Origin: Mycoplasmopsis equigenitalium
GTDB lineage: Bacteria; Bacillota_I; Bacilli_A; Mycoplasmatales; Metamycoplasmataceae
Direction: 5' to 3'
NCBI RefSeq assembly: GCF_024498255.1
Contig: NZ_CP101808.1
Coordinates: forward strand, 695,345 to 759,344
Length of the DNA: 64,000 nucleotides
A model generated the notes under the pieces. That model worked only from the letters and a program-made list of their open reading frames with translations. It was not told where the DNA came from and did no database searches. Made by a program: the position numbers and the translations under genes. Positions 4,591 to 42,148 of this stretch are shown here, piece after piece. The number at the start of each line of letters is the position of its first letter. Within the stretch, counting starts at the first letter, position 1.

Positions 4591-4614
4591 AACAAGCAAA
4601 GATAAATGCTTGTT
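4591..4614 (+). terminator. Terminator of the DHH operon
   Basis: Stem AACAAGCA (4591-4598) with TGCTTGTT (4607-4614), followed by T's. It starts immediately after the stop codon of copy 2. Confidence 0.85.
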
Positions 4615-4619
4615 TTTTC

Positions 4620-4648
4620 TTACTAATTTTAAATATTTATATTATAAT
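4620..4648 (+). promoter_or_regulatory. Candidate promoter of the tRNA pair
   Basis: TATAAT at 4643-4648 with a weak -35 (TTACTA 4620-4625, 17-bp spacer). It lies about 22 nt before tRNA-Tyr. Confidence 0.5.
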
Positions 4649-4670
4649 AATATGGCTTTACACATAATGT

Positions 4671-4754
4671 GGGGGGGTAGCAAAGCGGCCAAATGCGGGT
4701 GGCTGTAACCCACTTTCTTCGGATTCGGGGGTTCGAATCCCTCCCCCCCCACCA
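4671..4754 (+). tRNA. tRNA-Tyr (anticodon GTA)
   Basis: 84-nt class II tRNA with a long variable arm. The acceptor stem is seven G's (4671-4677) paired with seven C's (4744-4750). The anticodon stem is GGTGG/CCACT with GTA at 4705-4707. The T loop is TTCGAAT (4732-4738), the discriminator is A, and CCA is encoded. A homopolymeric G:C acceptor is striking in this genome. It is probably co-transcribed with tRNA-Gln 4 nt downstream. Confidence 0.95.
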
Positions 4755-4758
4755 TTTT

Positions 4759-4833
4759 TGCCCCATAGCCAAGCGGTAAGGCATCGGTTTTTGGTACCGA
4801 CACGCGTTAGTTCGAATCTAACTGGGGCAGCCA
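4759..4833 (+). tRNA. tRNA-Gln (anticodon TTG)
   Basis: 75-nt tRNA. Acceptor TGCCCCA (4759-4765) pairs with TGGGGCA (4823-4829), discriminator G, CCA encoded. Anticodon stem TCGGT/ACCGA encloses loop TTTTGGT, giving anticodon TTG. The T loop begins TTCGAAT. Confidence 0.95.
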
Positions 4834-4847
4834 AATGTCATTACACC

Positions 4848-4900
4848 AAGTTAGCGCACAGCTAACTTTAAAATAAAAGCAGGAATAATCGTCCTGCTTT
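4848..4900. terminator. Two hairpins between the tRNAs and the minus-strand surface operon
   Basis: First hairpin: AAGTTAGC (4848-4855), loop GCACA, GCTAACTT (4861-4868). Second: AAAGCAGGA (4876-4884) with TCCTGCTTT (4892-4900), flanked by A's on one side and T's on the other. The second can terminate both the tRNA transcript and the convergent minus-strand operon ending at 4908. Confidence 0.8.
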
Positions 4901-4907
4901 TTATTTT

Positions 4908-5132
4908 TTATTTGTATAGAGTAGCGGCTCCAGAAATTGTTAGTGCAAGACAAACAACAAGTAAAACAATTGCAATAATAAAGAAATAAAATCACTTGTT
5001 TTTTGGCGTTTTCTCACCTTTAACTTTAAAAGTTGAAGGGTCGGCACGACGAATTGGCCGGTGTGGAACTTCGTGATCCTGAGTAACTTCAAGAATCTCG
5101 CCAACAACTACTTCTTCATCATCATCGTACAT
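4908..5132 (-). CDS. Small single-pass membrane protein
   Basis: 74-aa protein with an acidic N-terminus (MYDDDEEVVVGEI), a basic middle (HRPIRRADP) and one C-terminal membrane segment (about 48-70, FYFFIIAIVLLVVCLAL). No family recognised. The start codon lies one base after the stop of the 1856-aa surface protein, and the ribosome binding site (AAAGGGAG) is inside that gene's last codons, so the two are translationally coupled. It may be an accessory or membrane partner of the giant protein; that is inference from position only. One Trp is TGA. Confidence 0.75.
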
Positions 5133-5133
5133 C

Positions 5134-10704: not shown

Positions 10705-10731
10705 ATTGTCCTCGTATATGTCTATATTAAT

Positions 10732-10737
10732 ATTATA
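10732..10737 (-). promoter_or_regulatory. Candidate -10 box of the giant surface-protein gene
   Basis: TATAAT on the minus strand, 27 nt before ATG 10704, in the short gap after the upstream operon's terminator. No clear -35 was found. Confidence 0.45.
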
Positions 10738-10770
10738 TATTAATAAAGAAATATGCTATTTTTGAAAAGA

Positions 10771-10790
10771 AAAAGGCCAAGCGGCCTTTT
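10771..10790 (-). terminator. Terminator between the two minus-strand surface operons
   Basis: Stem AAAAGGCC (10771-10778), loop AAGC, GGCCTTTT (10783-10790). It lies 4 nt beyond the stop of the tail-anchored coiled-coil gene on the minus strand. Confidence 0.85.
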
Positions 10791-10794
10791 TTTA

Positions 10795-11637
10795 TTAGAA
10801 TCAAGGGATTAGTCCGAAAAATGCTAGTAACGCAATTACGGCAATGCAAATAAATAATGATGTGAAGAACATTAGGGCAATAACTTTACCTGTAATTCGA
10901 TCAGATCATCTTGATTGTGGTGCACCGTAGAAATATTGTGTTGAATTTGTAGGATAAGGCATTGGCACAATCGCTGTTGCTGGGTTTGGATAGGGAACAG
11001 GAATTTGTTGTTGAGGTTGTGCCGGGATTTCGTTGTAAATTGATAACTGTGTTACTCCAGCATCAGCTTGTTGTTTTGATTGTGATTGTTGAGGTTGTGA
11101 AGCGCTTGCTTGTTCATCGAAACGTGCGGCATTTTCATTTAATGACTCATTAAGTTCATTCATTTCTTGTAATTTTCAGTCCATAACTTCTGATTTGAGT
11201 TCAAGATCTTTCTTAGCTTCTTCAACCTTAGAAAGTTTTTGATCGAGCTCTTTTTGTTTTTCCTCTCATTGTTTTTGTAAAATTTCTTGATTTCTTTTGA
11301 AAGCTTCTTCAAGACGTCTTTCTTGTTCTTTTTGTTTCTCTTCTGAATCAAACGAGTCAAATACAATCGTTTCTTTAGTTTCTAAAGAACGGATTGTTTT
11401 AATGTTTCTGACATATTTACCATTGGCGTGGAATCACAAGTATCCATCTACTTCTAATGACATATAGTAAGCAATCGCGTCTTCTTGATTTTTAAAGTAC
11501 TTAGCATCATTAGATTTTTTCTTTTTAAGTCTTCAAGCTTCTTGGTCACCTTTATTTGTTCAAGAACAGTATCAAAATTCACGTTCTGGTTTTTTGAATT
11601 CTGTTTGTTTTTCTGCTGTTGTATCGTTTTTAGCCAT
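10795..11637 (-). CDS. Coiled-coil, tail-anchored membrane protein
   Basis: 280-aa protein of unknown function. The N-terminal part (about 1-90, Trp/Tyr-rich; FWYCSWTNKGDQEAW, YFKNQEDAIAYYMS) looks like a small globular domain. It is followed by a charged coiled coil (about 100-165), a Gln/Pro-rich linker (about 175-235) and one C-terminal membrane segment (about 248-276). The topology suggests a cytoplasmic body anchored by its tail. Start ATG 11637 has a very strong AGGAGGAGGT lying inside the last Gly codons of the upstream gene. It is co-transcribed with the neighbouring repeat protein, so a role in surface-protein organisation is possible but unproven. Confidence 0.8.
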
Positions 11638-11639
11638 AA

Positions 11640-12707
11640 TTAGTAACCTCCTCCTCATACTTGTTGGTCATTTCTTTTCTTAGTAAGAGCCAAGATTAAT
11701 CATACTAAGAAGATGGTTGCTAAAACAACACTCAAACCAAATACGATTCACACTCAGTACGAACCTTTATTGTTGTATTTTGGAAGTTGAAGAGGCGCAA
11801 CAATATCTTGAAGTGCGTTAATTTTTTTATCAGCAGCTGCTTTTGCTGTAGGTGAGGTCAAGTTGTTTTTAAGACTTTTTAGTTTTTTAACTTGTTTGTC
11901 AACATAAGTTTGACTTAATTTAGAAGAACCACCATCATAAGCAGTTATTTCATTGTTCAATTCGTTAACAATTGCATTGAATTCACTTCAATTGTTACTA
12001 TCAAGTTCGTTTCCAACTAAGTCTTCGGTAACAAGTTTATCAAGCTCATTTAATTCACTAATTGAGATTTTGTGTTGTGCAAGAAGTTTTGCTTTAAGGG
12101 TACATATTTTAAGATAAATAACTTGTCTTTCTTCTGGGTTGCCTGCTTGTTTTCCGAATTCAACAGTAAGGTCAGCAATTCTTTTGGTAATTCATTCTTT
12201 TCCAAAGTCTTTACTCATTTTTTTAAAACCTGTAATGTCTTTAGAAATTTCGGTAGAATATGAGTCGTTTTTCTTAAATCTGTATGTAACTGTAATTTTT
12301 CCTTCTTCACCATTTGGCACAATTTTAACAATTGAGAAAATAACACCTTGTACGCTTGCTGGATTTGAACCTTCGTAAACAAAAACAAGTTCTTCAGGAA
12401 CAATTTCTTCAGCGTAATAATTTGATGGGTCTTTTTTATCAATTACTCCGTTATTATCTGTACCTAAATACACTTTGTATCCCGATACTGCGCTTGCAAT
12501 ACTTGCTTCGTCCTCAGCAACACCTAAAACTCAATTGTTTTGTGACGAACCACTAGCAAAGTTTGAATCAACACTAATAGTTTTACGTGCGCTTAATAAA
12601 CTTTCGCTATTGTTGTTTTGGTTAGAAATAGCAATAGTAGAAAGCGATACAACTGATGCAGTAGTAGCCAATGATAATCCTAAAATAAGTAGTTTATTTT
12701 TTTTCAT
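11640..12707 (-). CDS. Membrane-anchored lipoprotein-17-type protein
   Basis: 355 aa. N-terminal signal/anchor (about 5-27, LLILGLSLATTASVVSLSTIA) without a lipobox Cys; a Ser/Asn-rich stretch; one lipoprotein-17-like module ending DITGFKKM (about 155-162); a helical region (about 165-310); and a C-terminal membrane segment (about 318-342) with a short basic tail ending in Gly-Gly-Gly-Tyr. It shares its layout with the giant protein but carries a single module. Start ATG 12707 has AAAGGATTAGAG upstream. Stop is 2 nt before the next gene's ATG, and its Gly codons serve as that gene's ribosome binding site. Confidence 0.8.
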
Positions 12708-12992
12708 ATCTCTAATCCTTTACTTTTTTATAAAATAACAAACTTGCCTAATCCCTTTGCTTTTACGCATATCATTACAGCAGTTTGTTTCTATTTTGTT
12801 GAGAAAATACTTATTTTGTATTGAAAAGTAATAAGCATCTCAATCAACATTAGTTATTATAATATAAAAAACCCTTTTATATATAAAATGGCATTGTTTT
12901 ACATAATTTAAGTATGCAATCATAGTAAAATCACTGTTTTCTTGAAGTATTTTTTTGTTGCAGAAATATTCGTTTTTCAACAAAATTTCAAC

Positions 12993-13090
12993 GATTTTAT
13001 TGAAAATGCACGATTTTTTGTCTTTAATTTTTAAAAACACTAATAATTAAAATAAAAAACAACAAAAAAATTGCATTTTCAAAAAAAATC
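12993..13090. repeat. 28-bp imperfect inverted repeat in the surface control region
   Basis: Arms 12993-13020 and 13063-13090, both built on GATTTT...TTGAAAATGCA...TTTTTTG, with only a few mismatches and a 42-bp spacer. It lies upstream of both divergent genes. Confidence 0.6.
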
Positions 13091-13163
13091 AATGTTTTTG
13101 AATAACCCGCCTTCTAAAAACTACATAAATAAACCACAAGCGACAATATATTATATAATTTTA

Positions 13164-13192
13164 TTGTTTACGTATGTAAGTGTAAATATACT
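13164..13192 (+). promoter_or_regulatory. Candidate promoter of the 1436-aa surface protein
   Basis: TTGTTT (13164-13169), 17-bp spacer, TATACT (13187-13192), about 70 nt before ATG 13263. Confidence 0.55.
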
Positions 13193-13262
13193 ATGTTTAG
13201 GGCGATTAAGCCAAACTAAAATAACAAGGCAATCTTTATACTTCAAAAAAATAGGAGAAAAA

Positions 13263-16200
13263 ATGTCTAAACAAAATAAAAATAATACAAATTACAACCA
13301 AAATTCATCACCAAATGTTGCACCAAATTCTCAACAAAATGTTCCTGTTGCAAACCCAAATTATCCACAACAACCAACACAAAACCAGCATGTTGCCCCA
13401 AAGAAAAGCAACTCAAAAATGGTTGGCATTTTAATTGCTGCTGGAGTAACACCAATTGTTGCTAGTGCCGCTGCTGTGGCTGTCCTATTTGGACAAAAAT
13501 TAGCAGATGAAAATACATGAAAAGCTCGTGTTGAAGAAATAAATAAAATGAAGGAGCTTTTGAAAAACTCGCAGCTTGATGTTGTAAACAAACAAAACTT
13601 GTATGCTGCCGACGTTAACGAAAGAACTGACATTAAATTTGCGAAACCTTTGGATGGTTACAAGCCATTTTTTACAATTACAAAAATTGATTCAGAAAAT
13701 GGATTAATTAAAATTTTGGTATCAATAACACCAATTGAAGACAAGGGGTTCCACGCTGTTGCAGAACAAACTTATACAATTGGTGGTTTTAAAATTTTAG
13801 AAAAGGCTGATGCTAATTATCCATTCTACAGCGCTTTACAAACATTAAAAAATGAAATTAATTCAAACAAAAATAGTAATGGTGAAATAATAACTAAAAA
13901 TTACACCAACATCACAATTGATAAAAACTTTAAATACGAATCATTAACCGTTCTTTGCGACGACCTTGCTATTGATTTGGGTGATTATAAAAAATCTTTA
14001 ATTTCAATTAAAAACCAAGAGGTATATCTTAATAACAAAAATAACGAAATAGCAGGTCTTGAAGTTACTTTACTAATTAGCAATGGTAACTTAAAACAAG
14101 AACAAAATCTTAGAGTTGCTGGTTTTACCACCATTAAAGCTCGTGAAGAGCAAATTTTAAATGATGCCGTAAAAGATTTAGTTGGCAAAACTTTTAAAAC
14201 AACTAAATTTGTTGGAACAAAAACTTACGAAGAAGTGAAAAATGACGAATATGTTAATGGCAATAGTATTGCAAATGATATTCTTGAATTAAAAACAGCA
14301 ATTATTAACTGCCCGGGATTGTCGTTTTCGACTCCTAAATTTAAGTCAGCTGAAAACGATGGCCTTAATATTACTTTATTTGCTCACTTAGGACAAAGTG
14401 TAAAAGAAATCAACTTTAATGTCGATGGTTTCAAAACCCTAAGCACTTATTACACTGATTATCTACAAAAATTTGCTGATGCAATTCCTAACGAAGTAAA
14501 GATTCCGCTCTATAAATCAATTCAGCCAAGTCCAAAACTTGTCAAAGATGTAGTAATTCCTACTGATATTCCTAACTTTTTTAACGATTATATTGATAAT
14601 GACATCCACGAATACGCAAAAATCTTTGGTATCAACCTTAAAATTGAAAGTAATAGCGAATACAATCTTGCCGCTGGCACAAGAACTGTAAAATTAGTAC
14701 TTTCAAAAGGTGGTAATTCAATTACAAAAAATATCCTTTTAACAGGCTTTCTCAATCCAGAAAATTATGCTAAAGAAATTATTAAAAAAATGATTACTGA
14801 AGAAAGATTTCCGAAACATCACAGTACAAAAAACTTTACAAAAAAACTTCCTAACCAAGTAACTTATGCTCCTTTAAACTTAGAGGAATTAGGTAATGAT
14901 ATCGGTTTTGATCTTAAAGCAATTGAAAAAAGATGAGGTGTTAAATTTAATTTTGCATTCGAGAAAGATGATCTTGATAAGGGAACAAAAACATTTAATT
15001 TCAAAATCTTACACGGCAGTTATGGCGAACCTTATAAAATGACAATTTATGGTTTTAAAACTCAAAAAGAAGCTGATTATGAAAAACTTAATGAGTTTTT
15101 AAAACTTGTTAACGATAACCAAGTTACCAAAAATAACGCAAGTTCATTATCAAACAATGTATCATATACAAACTTTAGTGAATTTGATGCGGACCTTAAT
15201 GATGCGATTACACCAATCGCTAAAAGATATCGCGAACTATCGATTGAACAAAATATCGAAGTTGTTGATTTTGATAGTAAGAAATGTGTTAAATTCTTTG
15301 TAAATTACAAAGGACTAAGAGCAGAAAAAATTGTTTATGTAAGTGGTTTTACAAGCGCTAGCTCTGCTACTAACAAAGAAATTTCAGACGTTATTGAAAA
15401 TCTCAATAATGAATACTTTCAATCAAACCTTAATGCTTCACAAACACTTCCTTCAGAATACGCTAAAAACTGAAGCACTAATTTTGCTAATGCAAAAGCA
15501 ATTGATGATGCAGCTGGAACAAATCTAGTTGATGGTATTGAAACTCAAGGAATTAAAGTAACTACTAAAGGCGCAACCTATGACAACGTCAATGGAAAAC
15601 TAACTTTAGTTCTAGGTTTTACCAAAAATGCTGTGACAGTACACCGTAACTTAACAATTATTAACTACGGTACCTATCAAAAACAAATTGATGCCGCTAC
15701 AACCGGTTGAAGCGCCGAGCTAAGAGCAGATGGGCTTACAATGGCCTCAGAAAATACATACAACGACCTTGGTGATATTTATGCAATCGATCCTACTTTC
15801 AAATCGACTTGAAAAATTGAAAACGAAAGCCTTGCTACTTTTATGGAAGTAGATAATCGTGATTGAGAAGGCGATAAATATGTTCACGTTGTACTTCAAT
15901 CAGGCCACTTACAAAAAATTGTACTTGTACGAATTTCTAGATACAGTTTCCAAACATCTAGATATTCTGAGCCAATTAAAACTATACTTAAAAATATAAA
16001 TACTATCTTTACAACCGTTAATAACGCTGATAAATACATCACTGAAGTTTTCTACCATTCAACCGATGAACTTATTAATGATGTTGATCCTCAATTTAAA
16101 AATGATTTAGATGCTAACGGTCTAGCTATTAAAGATATGTCATTTAAATATTCTTTCTTAAACAATAACGAATTAAGATACGATGTTACTTTCTATCTAA

Positions 16201-17573
16201 AATCAGACCCTAATTACTATTACCGTCAAGAAATAGTAGTAAAAGGCTTTAACCAAGATAACACAAAACGTGAAATGCAAATTCTTAACGAATTTAAAAC
16301 ACTAGCAACAGCACCAATTAAAACTATTTTCCACAATTACCAAAAACCAACAGAAGTAGAATATAAAAATATTAATGAAATGATTGCCGATGGCGGTAAT
16401 TTATTAAAACACTTAGCAAACAAAGCGGTAGGAAAGTTCAATGCCGGTGATTTAATTAATATTAACCTTGATGAATCACAACCAATAACCAAAAATGATG
16501 CTGATGGAACTATTACTTTCTACATTAAAGCACACTACAGATCACAAACAATTTCACTTCCTATTGTTTACAATGGGTTCGTTGATCAAAACAGCGTTGT
16601 TCCTATTGAAAGAAATTTACTGGCATACGCACAAAAAATTCAAATCAAAGTACAAAATGCGGGTGAAATTGTTGAAGGATTTTACACCGAAAAACTTCCT
16701 GACCAAATTCTAGAAACCGATATTTTATTCAGAGATGAAAACGGTAATCAAATTGATAATGCTAAGTACCAAGTACAATTAGTTAAAATCACTCCCGATA
16801 ATGATAATTTATCGTTAAATGTTACCTTCGTAACTTCAACAGTTTATCAAGGAAAAACATTGAAAACTCCTGAAATTACCAAACAAATTCGAACAACAAA
16901 TGCTGCGCCAGCAGCTGCCGAAATTGAAAAGGTATGAAAGGCAACTAAATGGGGAGTGCTTAAAGATAATGTACCAATTATTTACTTAGGTGAATTAAAT
17001 CCAAATAATCCTAATGTTAAAAATAATGCACTACACATTTCATTTACCGAACAAGGTAAAACACCTAAGTTTTTAGGAACAGAAGCAGACTTTGTTGATT
17101 TTGTTGGTATCAAACCAGGAATGGAAATTACTTTCAGCAACTGAGAATACCTTACAGGAGATAAAGAAATTGTACGCCAAGTAATTAGCGAAAAGAAAAC
17201 ACTTTCTGCTAAAGAAGAAGGCAATGCGCTTGTATATTACGACTACATAACCGTTAACAAAAAGCTGCAAGCAGACACAAAATTTGGTCAACGTAACTCG
17301 ACACTAATTCACAACCGTAAAGCACCTGCAGACGTTCAGTTTAACTGAGCAAACAACACCAAACAACGTATAAAAGTTAATGTTAGATTTTCTTATAAAG
17401 GTGTTGTTGTTTGAAAAACACTTATCTCAGGTATCGGCTTAATTGATGGTGGATTACACTCTCAATATGCCGGCGCAAAAGATTCGCACACCACAAATCC
17501 AGCCATTATTTACTATCCATTTTATGAAATGACTAATAATTCAGTTGGTTCTGAATATATAGATGGAAAATAA
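13263..17573 (+). CDS. Large lipoprotein-17-related repeat surface protein
   Basis: 1436 aa. The N-terminus is an Asn/Gln/Pro-rich tract (about 1-55) that precedes a single membrane segment (about 58-80, VGILIAAGVTPIVASAAAVAV), so it should be a type II, N-anchored surface protein. The rest is about ten modules of roughly 100 aa, each with a strand-rich part ending in GF or a variant (near residues 173, 285, 387, 494, 595, 694, 993, 1104; degenerate near 800 and 890). Start ATG 13263 has AGGAGAA upstream; an upstream in-frame TTG extension lacks one. It contains many TGA Trp codons. Function unknown, probably host interaction or shielding. Confidence 0.85.
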
Positions 17574-28594: not shown

Positions 28595-28930
28595 ATGAGA
28601 AGTATTTCTATTTCTAAAAAAGAAGGTCAACTTAAAAATATTCTTAGCATTATTATCGAAGAATTAGATGATAAGGACATTGTTTTACCCACAATTGTTG
28701 ATGTTCGCTTATCAAACGACACATCACACGCTCGAATCTTTGTAAGTTTTTACAAACAAAAAAATCGTGGATTATCAAAATTAATCGGGGCAACCAACTA
28801 TATTAAAAAACAACTTGCAGCATACTTGGACTGACGAAAAATTCCTAACCTTGTTTTTGAATTAGATCATCTTACTGATGATGGAATGAGAATTGATAAA
28901 ATCTTGGAAGATTTAAAAAAAGAGGCTTAG
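28595..28930 (+). CDS. rbfA: Ribosome-binding factor A
   Basis: 111 aa. Helps 30S subunit maturation (16S rRNA 5' end). Recognised by length, the N-terminal basic helix (ILSIIIEEL), the KH-like core (PTIVDVRLSNDTSHARIFVSF) and the end IPNLVFELDHLTDDGMRIDKIL, which matches the family's IPxLxFxxD...G pattern. Ribosome binding site TAAGGAG lies in the last codons of the preceding gene. Its stop TAG overlaps, base for base, the stop of the convergent kinase gene. Confidence 0.88.
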
Positions 28931-28940
28931 TCCTCTTTTT
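28917..28940. terminator. Bidirectional terminator spanning two convergent gene ends
   Basis: Stem AAAAAGAGG (28917-28925) with CCTCTTTTT (28932-28940). It includes the last codons and stop codons of both rbfA and the minus-strand kinase gene. Confidence 0.8.
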
Positions 28941-29661
28941 TCTTTCTTCTTAATAAAATTTCTTGATGATACTTGTCTAGATTTTTAATATATGGCGCAT
29001 CGTCAAAATATTTTTTTGGTTGCGCATTAACCCAAAGAACAACGAGATAATTAACTAAAATTTTTTGTTGCAATATATATTCATAAATATAATCATCATA
29101 ACGATCTAATAAAATCGTTTCTTGCTCGTCAGTTAGGTGGCTCGATTCGATAAAATATGCCAAATCAAAATGCTTATCACCCATTGTCGCGTATTCTCAA
29201 TCCACAATATAAAGTTTGTCATTTTTTAAGACCATATTTTGAGTTCATAAGTCATTATGACACGGAGTGTCTTTTTTCATATTAGTTAAAATTTTATTAA
29301 TCCGTTTATAGTAAGCATCAATTTTAGGAATCTTAATGCCTTTTTGAGCCAAAATTTTAAGATATTCGCGAATTCGATCTTTAATATTAAATTTAGGAAA
29401 AGCGAGATTAGAATTGTGCAATGTTTTTAAACAGTCAGAAATTTTTTCAATGTTATCTTTTGTTAACTTTGGCTCTTCGCCTTCAATTAATTCTCATTTT
29501 GTTTTTTCTGGTGTGTTAAGTATTAATTTTGGCACAAAATTAAGAACACTTAAAATAGCATAATCAATATTATGATTAAATTGATTTTTATGTTTCTCTT
29601 GAACAAAAGTGTTATTTTCTACATATGAATAATTGGTGAGCCCTTGCGTAATTTTTTGCAT
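28927..29661 (-). CDS. Choline/ethanolamine kinase-like phosphotransferase (LicA/APH fold)
   Basis: 244 aa. The catalytic HNDLWTQNM (about 146-154, HxDxxxxN loop) and metal-binding IVDWEYA (about 164-170) are intact, as in choline kinases and aminoglycoside phosphotransferases. The N-lobe is short (QKITQGLTNYSYVENN). The likely role is phosphorylation of choline or a similar amine for lipid or glycan decoration; the substrate cannot be told from sequence. Start ATG 29661 has no ribosome binding site but a TATAAT 6 nt upstream. Three Trp in the catalytic region are TGA. Confidence 0.8.
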
Positions 29662-29667
29662 ATTTTT

Positions 29668-29673
29668 ATTATA
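29668..29673 (-). promoter_or_regulatory. -10 box giving a leaderless kinase mRNA
   Basis: TATAAT on the minus strand, 6 nt before ATG 29661. No Shine-Dalgarno lies between them. Confidence 0.6.
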
Positions 29674-29790: not shown

Positions 29791-30081
29791 TTATTGGGTT
29801 TTTTCTGTTGTAATTTTTGCAGCAAAATCATGAAACAAGTCACCTAGATATTTTGCTGAAATATTTGTCTTTTTAAGTTCTTGAAAATTTTGGGTTTCTT
29901 GAACCTCAATATTGTCCGAATTTAATAAGTGTTTTAGTAAAAATTCTAAAATTTTATCTGTTTGTCAATTTTCTTTTGGTCTTTCTAAATCAATTGAAAT
30001 AAAATTTTTGCTATTATTAGAATCTGAAATTTTTATTAATTTAACACCGTTTTTTTCTTCTTTGTAATCGATATTTATCAT
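29791..30081 (-). CDS. Small protein of the PHP-ATPase operon, unknown function
   Basis: 96 aa, acidic to neutral, no membrane segment or known motif seen. The N-terminal half looks strand-rich (INIDYKEEKNGVKLIKISD), the C-terminal half helical (ILEFLLKHLL, YLGDLFHDFAAKI). Start ATG 30081 has AAAGGA and lies one base beyond the ATPase gene's stop codon, so it is almost certainly the third gene of that operon. One Trp is TGA. It could be a regulator, immunity or adaptor subunit; this rests on position only. Confidence 0.75.
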
Positions 30082-30082
30082 T

Positions 30083-31786
30083 TTAGTTTTCCTTTCTAGA
30101 TTTTATATTTTTCATTTTTTCATCATATACTTCTTTTCGAAGTTCAAAGGCTTCGGCGCCTCCTTCTAAATAATGAAAATCTGCTGTTTCTTTTTTATTA
30201 TTGTCTTTAATAATTACTTCGTCAATTTTAAATTTATCACGTAAATTTTCGGCAAATAAATTTGTTGAAATTGTTTTTCCGTCGAGTAATAATCCGATAT
30301 TTGAATTATGAGTAACAATGAACATTTGTTTGCCTTTATTCTTTTGTTCTTTTAAAAGTGGAAGAATTTCTGAAAATATTGTTCTGTTATCTAAGTTGTC
30401 CTCAATTTGATCAAGTAATAAATATTTTGACTCTTTTTTGTGAGAAGATACATTCTTTATTGTGTAGGTTACACCAAATAAAGTTTTTTGTCCTTGAGAT
30501 AAATTCTCGTATGGAACATCACCAGCGTAGACTTTCAAGTGTCTAAAAACAAGAAAATTAATAATATCTTCCTTATCTTTTTTCGAAATTGTAGATGTAA
30601 TTTCTTTGTTCGCTGTTTTATTACAAATTAGGCCGTAAATGTTCATATTGTCTTTACTCATACCAAAAAGTCTTTTAAAAATTTCTTGCTTTTCTTCCAT
30701 ATCTAAAGAAAAGGGTGTAATTTTATAAATAAAATTATCACTACCATCCCCTTTAATTGAATAATCCCAATTAATTGTTATTTCGGTATTAATAACATCT
30801 TTTAATTTTTTATTAATATTAAAAATCAATTTTAAGGCATCGGCAAAAAAGGTTTTTAATTTGTCATAACTTTGATATTCTTTTTGTTCTTTTTGAATTT
30901 CATCTTTATATTTTCTTGATAACTCTTGAAAACAAGCAGCAAAAGAATTTATACCATTTTGACATTTCTTAATTCTTTTTTCGATTTCTAAAACGAAACT
31001 CAACATTTGTTTTTCAAATAAATCGTAAATTTCTTTTCGGATTTTTAACTTTTGGTCTTTTTCATGAACATTGCACAATCTTGATTCATAAGCTAAATTT
31101 ACGAACTTCTCATAATCAGTGAATGCCTTACCAAATTCTTTTTGCATATCCTCTTTATATTGATTAATTAGTTGATCGAAATTATTGTTTACAACCTTAT
31201 TGTTAAAATTAATATCAAACCAGTATTCACTTTGCTTTTTATTTGTATCAAAAGGTTTAGTTACTTCGAAAATAACTGGAGCGTGTGGTTTTTGCTCAGT
31301 TTTTAATTGATAATTTGAGAATTCATCTTTTAAACTCTCAAACATTGAAAATAAACATTTTTCTTGGGCAGCATTACCATTAATTTGTCGAACGAAAATT
31401 TCACGTTTTTTCTTCTTATTGTTTTCAACATTTTCTGTTGTATCAAGCGAAGTTTTACGATCATCGTCTTGTGTAATGTAACCTTCTATTTTCTCTTGAA
31501 CAATTTCTTCAGCATCCCTAAGATCACTCTTAGTTCCTTTAGCAATTGAAAACGATTTTTGTTCCGAATCCAAATTGTATTCAATATTTTCTTCACAATT
31601 TAATTGACCTGCCAAAAACGGTTTTGTTTCGATAAATTTTTCTTCTGCTATAGCAAAAGCAATTAATTTTAATAAAGTACTTTTGCCAGAACCTTTAGGC
31701 CCAACAATAATATTGACTTTTTCGTCAAACTCAAGAACATTTTTATCTGTACCATTTTTTTCTTTAAAAATTAGTTTTTTTAACAT
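30083..31786 (-). CDS. SMC/ABC-like ATPase, TrlF-type ATPase half
   Basis: 567 aa. Walker A is GPKGSGKST (29-37). A long, helical, Lys/Glu-rich middle (about 130-400) resembles the insertion of Rad50/SMC-like ATPases. The C-terminal half has the signature LSQGQKTLFG (about 428), Walker B YLLLDQIEDNLDN (about 452) and a THNSN switch (about 487). The DQxEDNLDN form is what I associate with ATPases fused to PHP domains (TrlF-type). Here the PHP domain is encoded separately, immediately upstream, with a TAATG overlap. Both Trp codons are TGG and there is no internal TGA, unlike neighbouring long genes. Confidence 0.8.
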   Translation of the reverse strand: MLKKLIFKEKNGTDKNVLEFDEKVNIIVGPKGSGKSTLLKLIAFAIAEEKFIETKPFLAGQLNCEENIEYNLDSEQKSFSIAKGTKSDLRDAEEIVQEKIEGYITQDDDRKTSLDTTENVENNKKKKREIFVRQINGNAAQEKCLFSMFESLKDEFSNYQLKTEQKPHAPVIFEVTKPFDTNKKQSEYWFDINFNNKVVNNNFDQLINQYKEDMQKEFGKAFTDYEKFVNLAYESRLCNVHEKDQKLKIRKEIYDLFEKQMLSFVLEIEKRIKKCQNGINSFAACFQELSRKYKDEIQKEQKEYQSYDKLKTFFADALKLIFNINKKLKDVINTEITINWDYSIKGDGSDNFIYKITPFSLDMEEKQEIFKRLFGMSKDNMNIYGLICNKTANKEITSTISKKDKEDIINFLVFRHLKVYAGDVPYENLSQGQKTLFGVTYTIKNVSSHKKESKYLLLDQIEDNLDNRTIFSEILPLLKEQKNKGKQMFIVTHNSNIGLLLDGKTISTNLFAENLRDKFKIDEVIIKDNNKKETADFHYLEGGAEAFELRKEVYDEKMKNIKSRKEN

Positions 31787-32505
31787 TACTTCCTTTCTTC
31801 AATATATATTTTTTTATTTTTAATTGCCATCTTAACACTTTCATAAGTTGCATCGGCTTCAACATAAGTATTATGTTTACTGTGTTCTGGGTATTTTCTT
31901 CAAGTATGGGTATCACTAAAAACAACGACCGGAACTTCTTCTCTTGCTAGTTCTTTTTCCTTTTTTCTTATTGATTTAAGATTTGAACTTTTAAGATCTG
32001 TTGTATCATACGCATCAACACGAGCGTCCTCAAAATCCTCTCAGTGCATGTTATCTTGGCCTTTGCCAGTATGGGGAAAAACCATAAAATCAAATTCTTT
32101 CAGAATTTCAAGTGCTTCTTTATACGTATGAACAATCATTGGTGTTCGATATTTACTAAAATTATTTTTAATCACTTGTTCAAGTTTGTCTAAGTCAGAA
32201 TCAGGATTAAAAATAAAAACCGCTTGGCCTTTTTCATTTTGCGTTTTCGCTTTTGGATTATGTGTTTTCAAATCAACTTCAACACCTGGGAAAAGTACTA
32301 AATTTCATTTTTTATTAGCTAATAATTCTCTCCTTTTAATAAAACTATCTTTATAAAAGTAATCATGATCAGCAATACTTGCAACAGCAACATGGTTTTT
32401 GATTAAAACATCAAAGATCTCTAAATCTGTGTATTTTTGCGCATTGCTTCCTGTAATATTCGAATCAGCAGAATGTGTGTGTAAATCAATTTTTATTCAA
32501 GCCAT
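31786..32505 (-). CDS. PHP-domain metal-dependent phosphoesterase
   Basis: 239 aa. The PHP metal-ligand set is complete: DLHTHSADSN (about 6-15), IADHDY (about 47), FPGVEVDL (about 76), a His in FPHTGKG (about 150) and the final FSDTHTW (about 201). Such proteins hydrolyse phosphodiester or phosphomonoester bonds; the PHP halves of TrlF-type proteins are thought to act on nucleic acids, but the substrate here is unknown. Start ATG 32505 is preceded by AGGAGG at a long spacing (about 12 nt). It is the first gene downstream of the riboswitch. Trp codons are TGA. Confidence 0.82.
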
Positions 32506-32703
32506 AGCTAATCGTAACCTCCTATACATTTTGCCGTGATAATTAAATAATCAATAAAGTTTGATTGTTTTAAAATGTATAGAAAATAAAGCGTAATGTT
32601 GATAAATAAGATAATTAATTAATCAAAACACCAACACATTATTATTAGCTAATTATCCATTTCATTATACAATGAAAAGCAACCGAAAAAATAAATAAAA
32701 AAA
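32506..32703. other. Leader region before the PHP gene, no gene seen
   Basis: About 200 nt of AT-rich sequence. It contains a minus-strand TATAAT-like box near 32670 without a good -35, and a small hairpin (AATCAA/TTGATT near 32555) about 40 nt before the PHP ribosome binding site. Only very short peptides are open. Confidence 0.5.
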
Positions 32704-32735
32704 ATAAGAATGCAATTTTATGGTTGCATTCTTAT
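32704..32735 (-). terminator. Intrinsic terminator downstream of the riboswitch
   Basis: Perfect 12-bp stem (32704-32715 with 32724-32735), loop of 8, followed on the minus strand by eight T's. It lies 24 nt after the aptamer. It may be the riboswitch's expression platform, the 3' end of the ABC transporter transcript, or both. Confidence 0.85.
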
Positions 32736-32758
32736 ATGAAATAGAAAAAAAGGGGGGT

Positions 32759-32824
32759 TAGTGTAGTCACCAGTTAGGTTGGTGGTAGAAACGTAGTTAC
32801 CATTATCAAACTATATATACACTA
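32759..32824 (-). promoter_or_regulatory. Purine riboswitch, guanine-type aptamer
   Basis: On the minus strand, P1 is TAGTGTA (32824-32818) with TACACTA (32765-32759). P2 is TAGTT/AACTA around a loop with ATAATGG. The invariant GTTTCTACC lies at 32792-32784. P3 is CACCA/TGGTG around ACCTAAC, and J3/1 is GACTAC. The loops carry the GG and CC needed for the L2-L3 contact. The specificity base of J3/1 (plus coordinate 32766) is C, as in guanine rather than adenine aptamers. The J2/3 sequence is canonical, which argues against the 2'-deoxyguanosine variant. The only gene set downstream on this strand is the PHP-ATPase operon. Confidence 0.88.
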
Positions 32825-32845
32825 TCCGAGTAAGTGCTATATATC

Positions 32846-32873
32846 ATTATATCAAATTTTTAAATTAAATCAA
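32846..32873 (-). promoter_or_regulatory. Candidate promoter of the riboswitch-led transcript
   Basis: TTGATT (32873-32868), 16-bp spacer, TATAAT (32851-32846) on the minus strand. It overlaps the last codons of the ABC ATPase gene. Transcription would start about 15 nt before the aptamer's P1. Confidence 0.6.
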
Positions 32874-33758
32874 AATTTCTTTAGGATCTTTTCTGGTCTT
32901 GTTAACACGTATCTTTTCAATGTATCCGTTTTTAAGATAAATAACCTTATCAGCTAACTCTTCAACCTTCTTGTCATGCGAAACCATCACAATGGTGGTT
33001 CCGTATTTTTTATTAATCCCATCTAAACTTTCAAGAACAATTTTGGCAGTACCAGGGTCGAGAGCTCCGGTTGGTTCGTCGGCAAAAATGATTGGTGCAT
33101 TTTTAATAAGTGCTCTTAAAATAGAAATCCGTTGTTGTTGTCCACCAGACATCGTGCTTGGAAATTTGTATTTTACATCCTCAACATCATACTCTTTAAA
33201 AAGTTCGTCGATATTAAGTAATTTGGTTTTATCTTTTTGAAGATAAGCGCCCGACATAACATTATCGTAACTTGTTAAATTTTGAAGTAAATTGTATGAT
33301 TGGAAAATAAAACTAACGTTGTTTCGTCTAAATTTAGTGAGTTTATTGTCACTTAAATATGGCAAATTCAAATTATTAACAATTACATTTCCATTACTTG
33401 CTCGATCAAGTCCTGACATCAAATTAAGTAAAGTTGATTTACCACTTCCTGATTTACCTAAAATGGCAACGTATTCACCTCTTTTAATTGTAAAAGAAAT
33501 ATTTTTAAGCACGTTTGTCAAAACGTTACCGCTTAAATAATATTTAGTAACATTTTGAATATCAAATATATTATCGTCAGTGTTTTTTAAATCTTTATTT
33601 TCATCTTTTGCACGTGGTTTTTTATTCGCCTTACTTATCATTCGCACAATCTTAAGTGGTACATTTAAAATGTTTTGATTTTGCTCATTGATAATTGAAA
33701 ACACATTTTTTCTTGTGATTTTTTGACTTAATAATGGATCATTTTCATTTTTTTTCAT
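32865..33758 (-). CDS. ABC transporter ATP-binding protein (LolD/MacB type)
   Basis: 297 aa. An N-terminal extension of about 60 charged residues precedes a standard ATPase: LGKSGSGKSTLLN (about 99-111), Q-loop IFQSYN (about 151), signature MSGGQQQR (about 202), Walker B IIFADEPTGALDPG (about 222) and SHD (about 258). This subtype pairs with FtsX-like permeases and usually drives mechanotransmission or lipoprotein/peptide export rather than small-solute import. It overlaps the giant permease gene (TAATG), which should be its partner. Ribosome binding site AAAGGAAAA lies in the permease's last codons. Confidence 0.92.
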   Translation of the reverse strand: MKKNENDPLLSQKITRKNVFSIINEQNQNILNVPLKIVRMISKANKKPRAKDENKDLKNTDDNIFDIQNVTKYYLSGNVLTNVLKNISFTIKRGEYVAILGKSGSGKSTLLNLMSGLDRASNGNVIVNNLNLPYLSDNKLTKFRRNNVSFIFQSYNLLQNLTSYDNVMSGAYLQKDKTKLLNIDELFKEYDVEDVKYKFPSTMSGGQQQRISILRALIKNAPIIFADEPTGALDPGTAKIVLESLDGINKKYGTTIVMVSHDKKVEELADKVIYLKNGYIEKIRVNKTRKDPKEILI

Positions 33759-36700
33759 TATTTTCCTTTCAATAAATCAATAGCCTTCATTTTGTTAATT
33801 GCGTATCACGCAATTGATGTTGTAATCAAGAAAACACTAAAGATTATGATTGTTGTTACAAAGACAGGTCAAACTGTTAAATGTAACGGCAAGAAGATGG
33901 AACTTGAATTTAGGATAACGCCTGTAAATAGTTTAATTGTTAAAATCGTGATCGGTATACTTAATATTAAAGCAAAAACAATAAATGGTACAAAGATAAA
34001 GAAAATTGTTTTAATTCTTTCTTGTTGTGAATAGCCCAAAATTGATAAAATCGCAATATTACGTTGATTTTCATTAATTAAAATCGTTGAAATTATAATA
34101 AGAATAGTAATTGAGATAACAAACGAAACAACAATAATCGAAACTAGTAAACTTTCTACAGTATTAGCGATATTAAGAGTAAATCCAGCTTCAATATCCT
34201 TCGAGTCAATTGATGTTGCTAGAGCAATATAAAGTGATTTGTTAAAAATGCTTGAGTATTTATTATTTGATTGCTCTAAAGCGCTTTTTTTGGCGTTGGC
34301 AATTTCAATTTCTTGGCCATTTTCGCCAAGGAATTTCTTTGTATCTTCCTTGGTTAATCCCATATCTTCAAACACGCTGCTTTCACCAGGTTTGTTTGAG
34401 GCCCAAGTTTCATCAGTACCAAATAAATTATCAAAGATTAACTCTTTATCCTGTTGCGAAAGTGTGTCAATATCATAATTATTTAAGGCTGCTCAATAAC
34501 CGCTTGGCGAGTAAAGGGTAGAAGAACCAATAACTTGTTCCGGCACTTTGGCATCTGTCATAATTCCATTAAATGGTTCTTCAATTAACCCGCTGGATAC
34601 TTTGTTAGTAAACATTTCATCAAGCCCTAGCAACTGATCTGCACAATCTTTTCTTGTAATTAATTCATTGTTAATATATGTTTGGTTAATACCAATAACT
34701 TCAAATTTTTGCGTTGTTTCTTCATCAATTGGTTTACCAATTATTTTATTAATTTTGTTTGTATAACGTGTCGTTTTATTCAAAATTGGTAATTCAATAA
34801 TACTTCCGGGTTGTAAATCAAATTCATGGCTTACCACCTCGTTAATTACAAGTGGTATGTGTTCGCCTTTGTAATTATATAAATCTTCGAATAGCGAACC
34901 GCTTAATTTAATAAGACGCGAATCCTTTTTATAGCCATAAATTTTAACATTTGAATCATTGATTTTTGAATTGATGTAAGTGTATTTTTCGTCGTGCTTA
35001 TCGTCGAAAAATACACCACCAAATGAAATATAGTAATCTTTAAAACGATTATCAATTGTGAAAATCTGATTATTAAATTTGTTAAGATAAATATTTTTAT
35101 AACCGTCAATTAAGAAGCTACGGTACACTTCACGATGTGAATTATTAGAAATATCATCTTGCTTGTAGGTTCCACCTGGAATTAATTTATTGTATTTAAA
35201 TTGCCCTTCTGCTCATGTTTGTGTATAAAGGAAGAAATCAGTATACGCTTTTGTTGTTTTATCTAAAGCATAAACACCAAACATATTAACGTATTTAAAA
35301 ATTGTATTGTTGGCAATAAGTGAATGATAGTATTCATCGAGTTTACTTGGCGAGTACGAGTTAGCATCAACTTCAAACTGAAGGATTTTAGCAATAATTT
35401 GACGTTTAATTTCTTCGTCGTAAATTGCTTTATGTTCCTTATTATTAACTAAGTCAACATCAGGCCCGTTTAAATTTAAATCGTTACATACCTTGTTAAC
35501 GGCCATATCGTGCAAATTGTAATGAATTTCATATTCTTTATTAACAACATTTTGTAAGGCATAACCGACCGAATCACGAATTGCGTTAACCTTAGCTTTT
35601 TGTGTGTCAGGCATAGAGTTATAAGTTATTTGTCATGGATCGACACTGACCCCACCTTCAATCGCAATGTTAACACTAAATTGCGTAATGATATGTGGCT
35701 CAAATTGTTTAGAGTCTTGAGCAATGTTACCGTTTTTACCGCCTAAATTAATTGCTTTTGAATAGCCGGGGCGGAAGTAATTATAAAGCGTTGTTTCAAT
35801 TTCATTTGATGTTCCGGTTGGAGTATAAATTAAATTTTCCAACTCGTGCGAACCATAGGTTCGATAAATACCACCCTCAATTGTTGGTGTTTCCATATCA
35901 ATCTTATAATTGTAATAACGATTACGATATGTTTCTTTCGTAATCGACTCAAATTTACCAATCGAAACAATACTAAAGGCACTAACAATTGTTGTAAGTA
36001 AAATTGAAAACATAAAGGCGAATAGTTTTCCAAGCGAATTAAGAATTAAACTAATTGAAAATTTTTGCTTAATGTTAAATTTGCTTGCTTTTGAAATTTT
36101 GGTTTGTGTTTTAACAAATGCTAAATCATTGGTTCCGCGCATTAACTCAATCGATTTTGTCTGAAGCATTAAGATCGTAACCACAAAAATCAATGCCGAG
36201 GTTCCAAGGAAAGGAATAAAGACGGTAAAGATCATTGAGAACCAGTTAAATGGTATTTTTTGTTTAGGTAATGTTCAGTAGTTGCTAAAAATATCCATTA
36301 AGAAAATCTGCAATTGCGAGCCTATGGTATAACCTAGAACACCACCTATAATCGAAGTCACCGCCGAAAACACAAGTAGTGAAGTTGCAATTTCTCATTT
36401 GTTGTACCCCTGCGAAATCAAGATTCCTAAAACTTTCGACTTAGATGCAATATAACGACGAATAATAAAGATTACCGACAGCGCTACTAATGTTACAAGT
36501 GTAACAATAATTAATGTTGTTGACTGGTCTACCATGTTAATAACTGATACTGGCATAATTAGTCGAATTGCCCGTTCAGGGTTAATTGGATCAACTTCTG
36601 ATTGTAAATATGCCCGTTTAATTACATCGCTTGGACCAGTAATTCTACTGATGGCTGCTTGAATATCATCTCTTAACTGTTCATCTGTTTTTTCTGTCTT

Positions 36701-39700
36701 ATTACTTATTAATAAATATTTTTTAATAACGTTACCTTGATAAGCGTTTTTGATCCGGTCAAACCCTTTATTATTAACATAAACAATCGCTTGGTTCTTA
36801 GTATTAACTTGAAGATTGTTTTCGTCAATAACTGGATATAAATAATCAACTGTGGTTTCTTCGCCAATAATAATGAATTTGCTACCATTAACATTTAAAA
36901 TGTATTTGTCATCAAGTTGAGCGATTAACTTTTGGATTTCAACTGGGTCGTTAGGTAATTTAAAGTCTTTAGTTGGTTGGTAAATTTCTTTATTATTAAG
37001 AATTAAGTATAAATAGTTTACTTTTGCGACATAACCACCAACATCGTTAAAGTTAATAATATCATCACGTGGATTTTGATAAGTAATTGAACCGATTGAT
37101 TCATTAATTAAGTTAATTAAATTCATTCCAAAAGTAGTAAGGGCGTTCTCTTTATTAAGTTTGTCTAAATAATCAAAGTAAGCGTTATCAATAATTAAGT
37201 TTGTATCTTGATCTTGACTTAATAAATGATAGAAATTTTCTTGCTCTGGCAACATATCTAAAAGAATTGTGCTGGTAAAGTTTTTTAATCAAACTTTGTC
37301 ATTTGTTAATGCTTCAAAATCAACAAGTTTGTTGAGTAAAATATGCTGTAAATTTCCAGTTGTTTGACTTTCGCCTGTAGTGTTGGTATTAGTAATAAAC
37401 CATAAAAGAATCCCGGTATTAATTGGGGTTAAATATGGATTAATCATAATTGGCGGCAAGTTTAAATTAAGTAAAAGTTGTGACGTTTTTGAATTTTTAA
37501 AAATAAACTTAGTTAAAAAGTCTTTTACTTGATAATTTTCTGGTCTTGTTACCAAATCTATAAATTGTTTTTGATTGTAGAAATATGAACCATTTTCTAA
37601 ATCCAAGAATCCGGTATTTTTAGTAAACTTTTTGCTTGAAGCAAGCATTGCAAAATAGTAGAAAGTGTCGTATTTTAAGGTTTCGTATACAGTGTTGCCA
37701 TCTTTTGTTTTAGCAAATAAATATTTACTTAAAATTGGATCGTTAGCAATAAAATTTTTAAGATAAGGTTGATTTGTAAAATCACTTCATTTGTTGGCAA
37801 TGTTACGGAAATTGATTAAACCACTAACTGTTTTAAGAGCATTAAAATTGCTTATATTTGGTTCTTGTGGTTCAAGTTTTTCACTTGATAACTCATCTAA
37901 AATTGGTTTCGAACCTGGTAAGAAAATTAATTCTAGCAACTTGGTTGCTACATATCTAGCATCATCCACATTATCAATGTAAGTAAACAATTTAGTCAAG
38001 TAAAAATAAAGTGGCGACATTGTAATAGCTTGTCCCTGTTTAGTATCAGGGACTTTTAAAAGCTTATTGAATGTATCCGTAATTAACCCAATTGTTCCGT
38101 TAGTTTGACCAATTTCTAAAAACGTATTAGCGTATTTTACTAATGAATCATCGCCAATTAAAAGATTACTTAATCTTTCAAATTTAGATAACTTGTTTCT
38201 TAGTTCATCCGTTGAAAGATAATTAATTAATGAGGTGTCAATTCCTAAATAATAATTAATAAATTTAATTTCCGAACTTCTTAAAGTGTTCTTATCAATT
38301 AATTTTTCAGTAACATTTTCAACTTTAATTTTTAAATTATAGTATGTGTCAAACTCGCTGGTTTTCTCACCCGAATCAAACAAACTTGTTAGTGATAAAA
38401 GATCAAATATTCCAATTTTATCTGGGTCGTTGGCAGGAATATTTATACCTGGTGCACCTGCTGCTTGTGATGTTTTTGAAGACAAGTTAAACATTTCAAT
38501 AATTGTCTTTTTAATAACAACATTGTTTTGTTTACCTTCGAACAACGATTCTAAAAAGGCAGAAATAATATCTGAAAGTTTAAACATACCCACTCTTACT
38601 TTGTGAATAATCGATGGGTCTTCAATGCCGTTGATAATGCTTGGTGAATAAAAGATTTCTACTCGTTCACCCTCAAAGCTATCAAGATTTAATTTTGCAA
38701 AAAATGATTTTAAATCAATAATTTCAATTAATTTAATAAGACCTTGTTTAAATTCTTTGAAATTATTTTCGGGATGGTTTTTGTCTTTGTTTTGATTTAT
38801 TTTTGGTAAAAGTTTTCAAATCTGATTATCTTTAGAAATAAATGAACTTAGAATACTATTTTCGGGTCCTAATAAACGGTTAAAATCAATGGATTCAACT
38901 AACTTAATTAGCGATTTTGATAACTGGTTAGTATCAATTGAATAAAGGAGCGGCTTAATTAAATCAATACTTGAAATTCCGCGTTCATAATTATCTTTGT
39001 CAAATGAACCATAGTACAATTTATTTCCATCAGCATCTTTTGCGTGAAGAAATTCATGTAAAATATCTAACCATTTTTTAAAATCAATTGAATTAACAAT
39101 TTCTGAAAGCGCATCGACCATCGTGCTTGAATTGTTTGAAATCTGAATCAAGACGTCTGCCGGAATTGCATCAATAAAGTTAACGTTAAAAACGTGTTTA
39201 AACAAGAATTTTAATTTGTTATATTGTTCAGTAAAGTATGAAACAAAATCGGGGCGTTCAATAATCTGAATCTTAATTTGTTGGAAAAAGTTTGTAAATA
39301 ACTTGTTTAAAATACCCGGGTTTGATTTTGTTACTTCATAAAATACATCAAGCATTAACGGAGTAACAATTTTAAGATTTAAGATTCCGCTCGCAAACAC
39401 TTGTCCAAAGTTTGCTTTTTGAAGCACATCTTTGGCAACTGGTATAAATTTCGAAATAAACTCAACATCTATAAAGTTGTTTTTCACTAAATCTAAATTT
39501 AGAAGCACTTTTTCAACACTAGCCATCATAAAATCAACAGTACCGGTCTTAAATGCTTCGGTAAGTAGTTCATTGTGTGGAGCACGGAAAATCATCGGAA
39601 TATAAATAAAGTTTTTAAATAATGGATCTTCTTTAGCTCATCCGCGCTTTTCAATTGGTGTGTTGTAATGCAATGTAAAAAAGTTGTTATTAATGAACAA

Positions 39701-42148
39701 TCTTTCCATCTCAACAACACTCATACGGTTATTTGTCTGTCTTATTTTTTCATCAGTAAACGCTTCAGGATTGACGCTAGTTCAGGTAAAGTCACCAACT
39801 TTTCTTTTTAATAAAATAAATTTATTTTGCAACATCGTAATCGCATATTCAAAATCAGTTCCTGCTTCGTTAAAAACTGTTTGATTTACATTAGATTGGT
39901 CAACAGAATATTTTGCTAAAACAACAACTTTTTGTGAGTTGTAATATTTTGTTTCATTTGTAAAATTACTTACAATTCCCACTCGATCGAAGCGAATATC
40001 GGTATCGAAGTATTTAGGATCTGGGTTAATGTTTTTAAAAATTTGGTTAACAACTTTAGCTGCAACATAAGTAGGTAATTGATTTGTTTTGTAAAAAGTA
40101 CTTTTTGAAGAGCTAATCTCATTTAAAATAGTAGGTTCATAATACTCATTATAAAGTTTTCCGACATTTAATTTCACACCATCAATTTCAAAATTTTCAT
40201 TACCAGCATTAATAAAATGAAAGACATTTTTTTCGTTTGTGTCTTCATTAAACCCATCTACTGTAAGTGTTTGTCTATAACCAACATTTTCAGCCCCTAC
40301 CATCCGAATAACTTCTTTGGTTGATTCTTGAATGTTGAAAAACTCGGCACCTTTGGCTATTCTGGCAAAATATTTATTTTTGATATTTGGGTTGTAAATT
40401 TGCGAAATAATTTCTTCGTCACTTAATTTATCTCATCCTTCGTGATAAGCTTTTTCAATTTTTAAAATACTTTCTTCTTTTAATTTTCCCGCGTCTAAAA
40501 ATAGACCTGTTTCGTTATCATTGAAACGGTAAAGCTCACGATCTAAGTCTTCGATAACAACAGTGTTATAGCTATTCTTTTCAGCGCCTTTAATAATTAA
40601 ATTTGGATTATTAATTTCTTCAAAATTAAACAAGTTTGTTTGTAAATTAAATAAATTTGTGTCCGCTCTTCACGCAAAAACAATTGCTTTTTTACTTCAG
40701 TAACTTAATTTTTCATACTCTTTAAAGCTGCCATATGTTCGAATATAATCTTCGTTTTCAGGATTAAGATAATCTGAAATTTTACTCATAAAACTACCGA
40801 ACGATCCGGTTCATAAGTCTTTATATTTAACATCTGTTTTTGTATTTCTTACTTTAAGATCAGAATAAGTAGATGCATAGTGTTTTAAAAAATATTTATT
40901 AATTTGCAACTCTTTAAAAACAAAATTTTTGTCAATTTTATAATCGTGTTCGGGAACAAACAAATTATCACGAATATCAAAAACATCGATTTCGACCTTG
41001 TTAGTTAAAAGTTTAAAACGACTAAAAAATTGTTCCTTAATTTCTTCAAGGGCAAATGCTTGAAGTTCAGTAAATGTAATTGTATCTTTTACAATGTTTC
41101 AAGTTAATGTTTTATTACCTTTACCATCGACAGTAATTTTATGGTCAAAAAAGTTTGCGCTAACACTATCATCGCGAACAAAAAGCTTTGGATAGGTTGT
41201 ATCTGATTTTAATTTAAAAAGCTTTGCAACATTTTGTTCCGAAATTTTAAAACCAATTCCTAAATCAAGTCAACTTTTGGCTTCAAAATAATCAAAAGTG
41301 ATTTTTTTAGTAACAAAGTTAAAGTAGGCTGGACTAATATTTTTAAAATATATTTTTGTGCCGTCTTCTGAATCTTGAAAATTAATTAATTTACTTACTG
41401 TAGTAGGGTTTGTATAAGTTGTCTCTAAAGTAAAAACATCAGTAAAAAGAATTTCTTTTTTCTCTAAATTTGGTTCATAGTTATTACCGTTTTTACGGTA
41501 AACAAAAATCGTTGGTTGTTTTCTTGAAGCAACTAAATTATCATAAACTGTCTTATTTAAACGAAAGGTTGAGTCATAATCCTTCAAAGAAAATTGATAA
41601 TGCTTTGGTTTGCTAGCAGATTCTTTAGAAATTAAATAATTAGTATAAATTGAATTAAAATCAATTTTACGAATATATAAATCAGCAGGAAATGAAACAT
41701 CAAAGCGTTTAAGTGCAATATACCCTTGATCTTTTTCGCTTGCTTCAGCATATAAATCTACTTTATAACTTGGTGCTTTATTTCAATCGTCTTTTGGTAT
41801 AAAAGCGATTGGATCATCTCATTCACGTTTTCCATACTTATCTTTTCACTCTTTTGATGTTACATAATTACCCGCATTATCTTTACCATATTGATCTTCT
41901 TTTAAAAAATCATTAACAAAATAGCCACCACCATAGGCGCTACCACTACTTGGAAGGTTAAGGTCAGCAGTAACATCGTGAACTTTGGATATTTTTTTAT
42001 AATCACCAAACTGACTATTAAACGAACTACGCAAGTTGAATAAAAGTGTAAAAATAGCAGAAGTTAGAAACACTAAAAATGTAAGGCCGATAATGACAAC
42101 CTTATTTTTTGAAAGCGATTTAAATACTTCCTTGAATAATTTAATCAT
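33758..42148 (-). CDS. Giant FtsX-family ABC transporter permease
   Basis: 2796 aa, open throughout only with TGA as Trp. An N-terminal membrane segment (about 16-38, VVIIGLTFLVFLTSAIFTLLF) is followed by an enormous, probably extracellular region of about 1800 aa. Then come a first FtsX-like block (about 1865-2075; LIIVTLVTLVALSVIFIIRR, KSKVLGILISQGYNKWE), a second large soluble domain (about 2080-2640) and a C-terminal FtsX block (about 2650-2796; IAILSILGYSQQERIK and three more helices). The GI/GY motifs after the first helix of each block are typical of FtsX/MacB permeases. The partner ATPase is the next gene. Substrate unknown; release of lipoproteins or handling of surface polymers are options. 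Confidence 0.85.

Follow-up and report, generated by a model that had tools for sequence, protein, structure and literature searches.

A split TrlF/Ppl-like cassette, probably inserted between an older guanine riboswitch and a kinase gene in Mycoplasmopsis equigenitalium

The locus described here is best explained, with a probability that we put at roughly 0.7, as an older guanine riboswitch-kinase leader into which a mobile, split TrlF/Ppl-like cassette was inserted, the cassette probably serving in defense. The cassette consists of three minus-strand genes, encoding a PHP phosphoesterase, an SMC/ABC-like ATPase and a small third protein, and it now stands between the riboswitch and the kinase gene. 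The original prediction from this DNA had taken the genes for a nucleic-acid-directed effector controlled by guanine. Family resemblance to TrlF and Ppl supported the first part of that proposal, whereas the guanine-controlled part went unsupported. The new element is a conserved split form of the protein with a small third subunit.

Results

Organization of the locus

The source genome belongs to a mollicute that uses genetic code 4 and forms a single contig of 806,532 bases; the window is the whole stretch of 64,000 nucleotides that was analyzed. Read along the minus strand, the locus begins with a LolD/MacB-like ABC-transporter ATPase gene (33758-32865), followed by a promoter-like pair, the aptamer, an intrinsic terminator, the PHP gene, the SMC/ABC-like ATPase gene, a 96-aa gene, and an APH-family (thiamine/choline-kinase-like) kinase gene (28927-29661). 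A 2796-aa permease-like protein (33758-42148, minus strand) adjoins the LolD/MacB-like ATPase, and a homologous C-terminus precedes that ATPase in M. elephantis.

The three central genes formed the tight minus-strand operon that had been predicted. The PHP gene (239 aa) runs from an ATG at 32505 to a stop at 31786, with its Shine-Dalgarno sequence AGGAGG at 32523-32518; the ATPase gene (567 aa) occupies 31786-30083, and the small gene (96 aa) 30081-29791. A TATAAT box (29668-29673) stands 7 nt before the ATG of the kinase gene, and M. elephantis has an equivalent. Upstream of the PHP gene, an 11-bp inverted repeat, CTATACATTTT...AAAATGTATAG (32522-32582, minus strand), ends with its 3' arm in the PHP Shine-Dalgarno sequence. 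It folds weakly (z = −2.08) and may be an operator or a translational hairpin. A Yfr10 match at 32511-32583 was rejected, being on the opposite strand and below the gathering score.

The riboswitch leader

All three leader elements of the original prediction were recovered. In a motif scan the promoter-like pair, TTGATT and TATAAT separated by 16 nt (32873-32846), matched 10 of 12 consensus positions and was the best minus-strand site in the window; a TATAAT also precedes the M. elephantis aptamer. Promoter-like sites as such were as common in the window as in shuffled sequence (23 vs 24.6), and TATAAT was depleted there (68 found vs 103 expected). The RF00167 (Purine) match on the minus strand at 32842-32744, with the core from P1 to P1' at 32823-32760, reached 40.5 bits (E = 2.5e-5), above the gathering score of 37. 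We called it with cmscan on a short stretch of 441 bases, because scan filters caused the whole-window Rfam scan to miss it. The match has the P1-P2-P3 architecture and the conserved core, and all four guanine-contacting positions of the aptamer alignment (U22, U47, U51 and C74) are present, making it guanine-type by sequence. It was the one purine match above cut-off in the source genome. The leader fold gave z = −4.28, and the terminator (32735-32704), seen in both the terminator scan and the leader fold, has a 12-bp stem and a T run; terminator-like sites numbered 4 against 1.1 expected. The folds showed no antiterminator coupled to the aptamer. When the M. elephantis leader was folded, a CUUUUUU/AAAAAAG hairpin appeared that would compete with the terminator, and P1 was not involved.

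As an RNA the element has the same aptamer core as other guanine-type RF00167 members. Its neighbor is atypical, since other riboswitches of the family stand before xpt, guaA, purA or permease genes, whereas this one precedes the operon here and the APH-family kinase in M. elephantis. In genus g8 mycoplasmas, for example, purine riboswitches (L010, L013, L015) precede purA, which encodes adenylosuccinate synthase. Another genome, G052, carries two purine-riboswitch matches, one on each strand with about 70 bases between them (C1:60250-60512), leading divergent membrane-protein genes; the second of these back-to-back matches scored 35.2 bits, below the cut-off.

Downstream of the terminator, at 32664-32669, lies a further TATAAT box. 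Among 25 operons, 14 had a TATAAT within 180 nt upstream, compared with 9.1 expected, a count reached by 5 of 300 shuffles; on the opposite strand of the same 180 nt there were 5. The box and this enrichment together make an operon promoter of its own likely, and the cassette probably uses the candidate promoter at 32664-32669.

The same site in M. elephantis

We compared the locus with that of M. elephantis (G049; contig NZ_JHXU01000005), the closest named relative and a member of the same genus. There the same two genes, for the ABC ATPase and the kinase, flank an orthologous aptamer (47.1 bits, L011:1501-1597); behind it come a terminator and, with no operon in between, the kinase gene itself (riboswitch plus kinase, L011:1501-2389). 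The two aptamers shared 90% column identity and differed by two compensated pairs, with 100% of cells paired. A shuffle control reached this in 132 of 500 cases and was uninformative, since only two sequences were available. A covariance model built from a MAFFT alignment of the family aptamers retained only 5 pairs and was left unused.

M. elephantis does possess the operon, elsewhere in its genome, and that copy nests among operons of genus g7 (support 100/100). Sister placement of the source and M. elephantis operons was rejected (p-AU = 3.65e-5), whereas the kinase tree joined the two species. Identities between the two species were 83% for the ABC ATPase and 71% for the kinase, compared with 48% for PHP and 33-36% for the operon ATPase. 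Because the aptamer occupies the same gap without the operon, and the M. elephantis operon sits elsewhere and on a different branch, we conclude that the operon was most likely inserted between an existing riboswitch and the kinase, the aptamer being the older of the two at this site, as judged from the sequence comparison. In principle the operon could instead have been lost in M. elephantis; the tree speaks against this.

The insertion is marked by neither a target-site duplication nor inverted ends, and has no recombinase. The left and right flanks aligned no better than shuffles, so a flank duplication was rejected, as were mobile-element ends, the repeats near the junctions being of low complexity.

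The original prediction turned on finding a purine aptamer together with the operon in other mollicutes, and no such pairing was found. None of 18 operon loci scanned in relatives had an aptamer, and every purine match in 30 genomes lay away from the operon, so that the aptamer is not conserved with the operon. Guanine control as a part of the system was thus not borne out, given the operon copies without an aptamer and the aptamer at the same site without an operon. Our verdict is that the riboswitch itself is ordinary and the operon its accidental neighbor.

Since the M. elephantis aptamer has the kinase gene directly behind it, the kinase is the likely original target of the riboswitch. The kinase was present in 133 of 135 family genomes. 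A riboswitch before it was rejected as a family-wide arrangement, because 18 other kinase loci that we scanned had no aptamer; the link between aptamer and kinase is therefore known in two species only.

A split TrlF-like protein with a small third subunit

The PHP protein and the ATPase matched the two halves of a single model, NF045780 (TrlF), in order: the PHP protein covered model positions 4-274 (57.2 bits) and the ATPase positions 448-943 (78.2 bits). We therefore regard the two as a split TrlF/Ppl-like protein. Profile-profile comparison with fused relatives gave probabilities of 98.5 and 99.8 for the two halves. The predicted kinship with TrlF-type PHP-ATPase proteins thus stood as that of a split relative, although not as a fused chain: both scores fall far short of the 350 bits set as cut-off for NF045780, and the protein is split in all mycoplasma copies, whereas relatives outside the mycoplasmas are nearly always fused into single chains of about 900-1000 aa (a TrlF chain being about 900 aa).

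The metal sites and ATPase motifs that had been called intact proved to be so across homologues. In 25 sequences the PHP metal residues H9, H11, D46, H47, E76, H145, D198 and H200 were invariant, and the metal-binding His, Asp and Glu residues of the four motifs of the PHP superfamily were all present. The AlphaFold model of the PHP protein (pLDDT 93.3) was closest among PDB folds to TM0559, EndoQ, RNase AM and PolIII PHP domains; several of the PHP enzymes nearest in fold act on nucleic acid. The ATPase matched the SMC_N and AAA_21 domains, and its Walker A, LSxGQ, Walker B/D-loop and H-loop residues were invariant or nearly so in 25 homologues.

PADLOC models matched by the ATPase were mad3, AriA (6.6e-13), GajA, PtuA and, weakly, Ppl (2.6e-6, 23.9 bits). 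MADS mad3, PARIS AriA, Gabija GajA and Septu PtuA share the SMC/ABC-type ATPase domain and its motifs, but the partner enzyme here is a PHP protein, not the partner that defines those systems. Ppl, an anti-phage protein of E. coli, shares the combination of PHP nuclease and NTPase, and the likeness lies in the ATPase part. Of the mycoplasma proteins the ATPase alone matched Ppl, the PHP protein having no Ppl match among the PADLOC models, and the two fused relatives tested also had Ppl as their best match, through the C-terminal ATPase lobe (5e-28 and 2.5e-24). Moreover Ppl is a single gene, whereas the mycoplasma module is split and has a small third subunit.

TrlF itself has the same N-terminal PHP and C-terminal ABC/SMC-like ATPase domains. 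It is named for the temperature-restriction locus of Photorhabdus, which was studied with no phage test (PMC7554251). The mycoplasma module differs in being two proteins with an unrelated small third protein added, and we noticed no TrlG or TrlR partner here.

The small gene belongs to the cassette as a genuine third component. Of the 24 relatives whose ATPase is full-length, 23 had it directly behind the ATPase gene, and the remaining one lies at a contig end; it was always last in the cassette, and was a few nucleotides from, touching or overlapping the ATPase gene. We aligned 24 homologues of the protein, and the best family match was Imm53 (E = 0.02, in 2 of the 24), which is not convincing. 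Its AlphaFold model was good (pLDDT 88.5), yet no PDB fold matched at E < 0.001. A fragment of fused TrlF was rejected as its origin, because hhalign found no match.

Distribution of the cassette

About 26 of 135 family genomes carried the cassette, a patchy distribution (ATPase in 28, PHP in 27) that spanned 8 of 14 genera. The PHP and ATPase genes adjoined wherever both were complete. A PHP+ATPase tree of 24 genomes, each with an adjacent pair, was discordant with the genera; a g11 copy (G105), for instance, joined g7. The neighbors of the cassette varied between genomes. Relatives of the ATPase turned up in 217 plasmid records and 5 phage records, and TrlF genes were seen on plasmids. Taken together, the patchiness, the discordant tree, the changing neighbors and the plasmid and phage relatives point to a horizontally exchanged accessory module.

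We inspected 15 regions by eye. In 14 the operon lay mostly amid housekeeping and lipoprotein genes, with no defense island. Only G055 had defense-like neighbors (L215, ~3200-16700), where the operon adjoins HEC-06/Orf5-like and SspE-type genes and an AbiLi-like ATPase. The ATPase gene was broken in G047 (C3) and G048 (C1), and the PHP gene also in G048, as internal stop codons or partial matches. In five genus-g11 genomes (L048, L056, L057, L059, L060) a tRNA with a UCA anticodon, which is tRNA-Trp in code 4, lies within ~0.8-1.1 kb upstream of the operon. These tRNA-adjacent operons include separate branches of the operon tree, and the site may be an insertion hotspot.

Discussion

We propose that, in the ancestor shared with M. 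elephantis, a promoter-aptamer-terminator leader would have stood before the APH-family kinase gene, and that a cassette of ~3 kb (roughly 32,700 to 29,690) would later have been inserted between terminator and kinase. By inference from the family, a dimer of the ATPase may sense invading or damaged nucleic acid and license the PHP subunit to degrade nucleic acid, which would defend the cell against phages or plasmids; the small protein may be a structural or regulatory subunit. A nucleic-acid-directed defense role is reasonable because the module is a split TrlF relative with a Ppl-like ATPase part, and by analogy the three genes likely have an anti-phage role.

The alternative that survives best, although we hold it to be considerably less probable, is a housekeeping or stress function such as DNA or RNA repair or RNA turnover. 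Likeness of the PHP fold to TM0559, EndoQ and RNase AM would suit such a role, as would the scarcity of defense islands in the inspected genomes, and in Photorhabdus the trl locus influences how the cells grow at high temperature (PMC7554251). Set against these are the presence of the cassette in about 26 of 135 genomes only, its discordance with the genera, the broken copies in two genomes, and the homologues carried by plasmids and by a few phages.

It is improbable, in our judgment, that the riboswitch works as part of the system, with the operon switched by the guanine pool and, for example, induced when guanine falls. The operon does have an intact aptamer and terminator immediately 5' of it, in the same orientation and behind a promoter, and the related Ppl is activated by nucleotide depletion; this PHP-exonuclease/NTPase anti-phage protein is released by such depletion and acts on DNA 3' ends (reviewed in PMC12904381). 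But other operon copies have no aptamer, the aptamer is the older of the two here, the folds offer no antiterminator coupled to it, and a TATAAT separates terminator and start codon. If the riboswitch influences the operon at all, it would do so by read-through, as a chance result of where the cassette was inserted. A narrower version, that in this species alone the cassette captured the riboswitch by insertion and the defense operon now follows the guanine pool, seems to us just as doubtful; if true, such a capture would echo the nucleotide-depletion trigger reported for Ppl.

In PARIS, the SMC-like ATPase AriA holds a partner, AriB. A toxin-antitoxin-like cassette with the small protein as neutralizing or regulatory partner would agree with the AriA match and with the position of the small gene, but it is unlikely, as the protein had no convincing antitoxin, toxin or immunity match and the recognizable enzyme is the PHP protein.

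Insertion of a mobile, probably defensive cassette beside an older riboswitch remains our preferred reading. The locus is a clean case in which a riboswitch-operon neighborhood that looks regulatory in a single genome is revealed by comparison as such an insertion. The mycoplasma module is a TrlF/Ppl-like protein divided into two chains, to which a small third subunit of unmatched fold has been added, and with the subunits encoded separately the role of each can readily be tested on its own.
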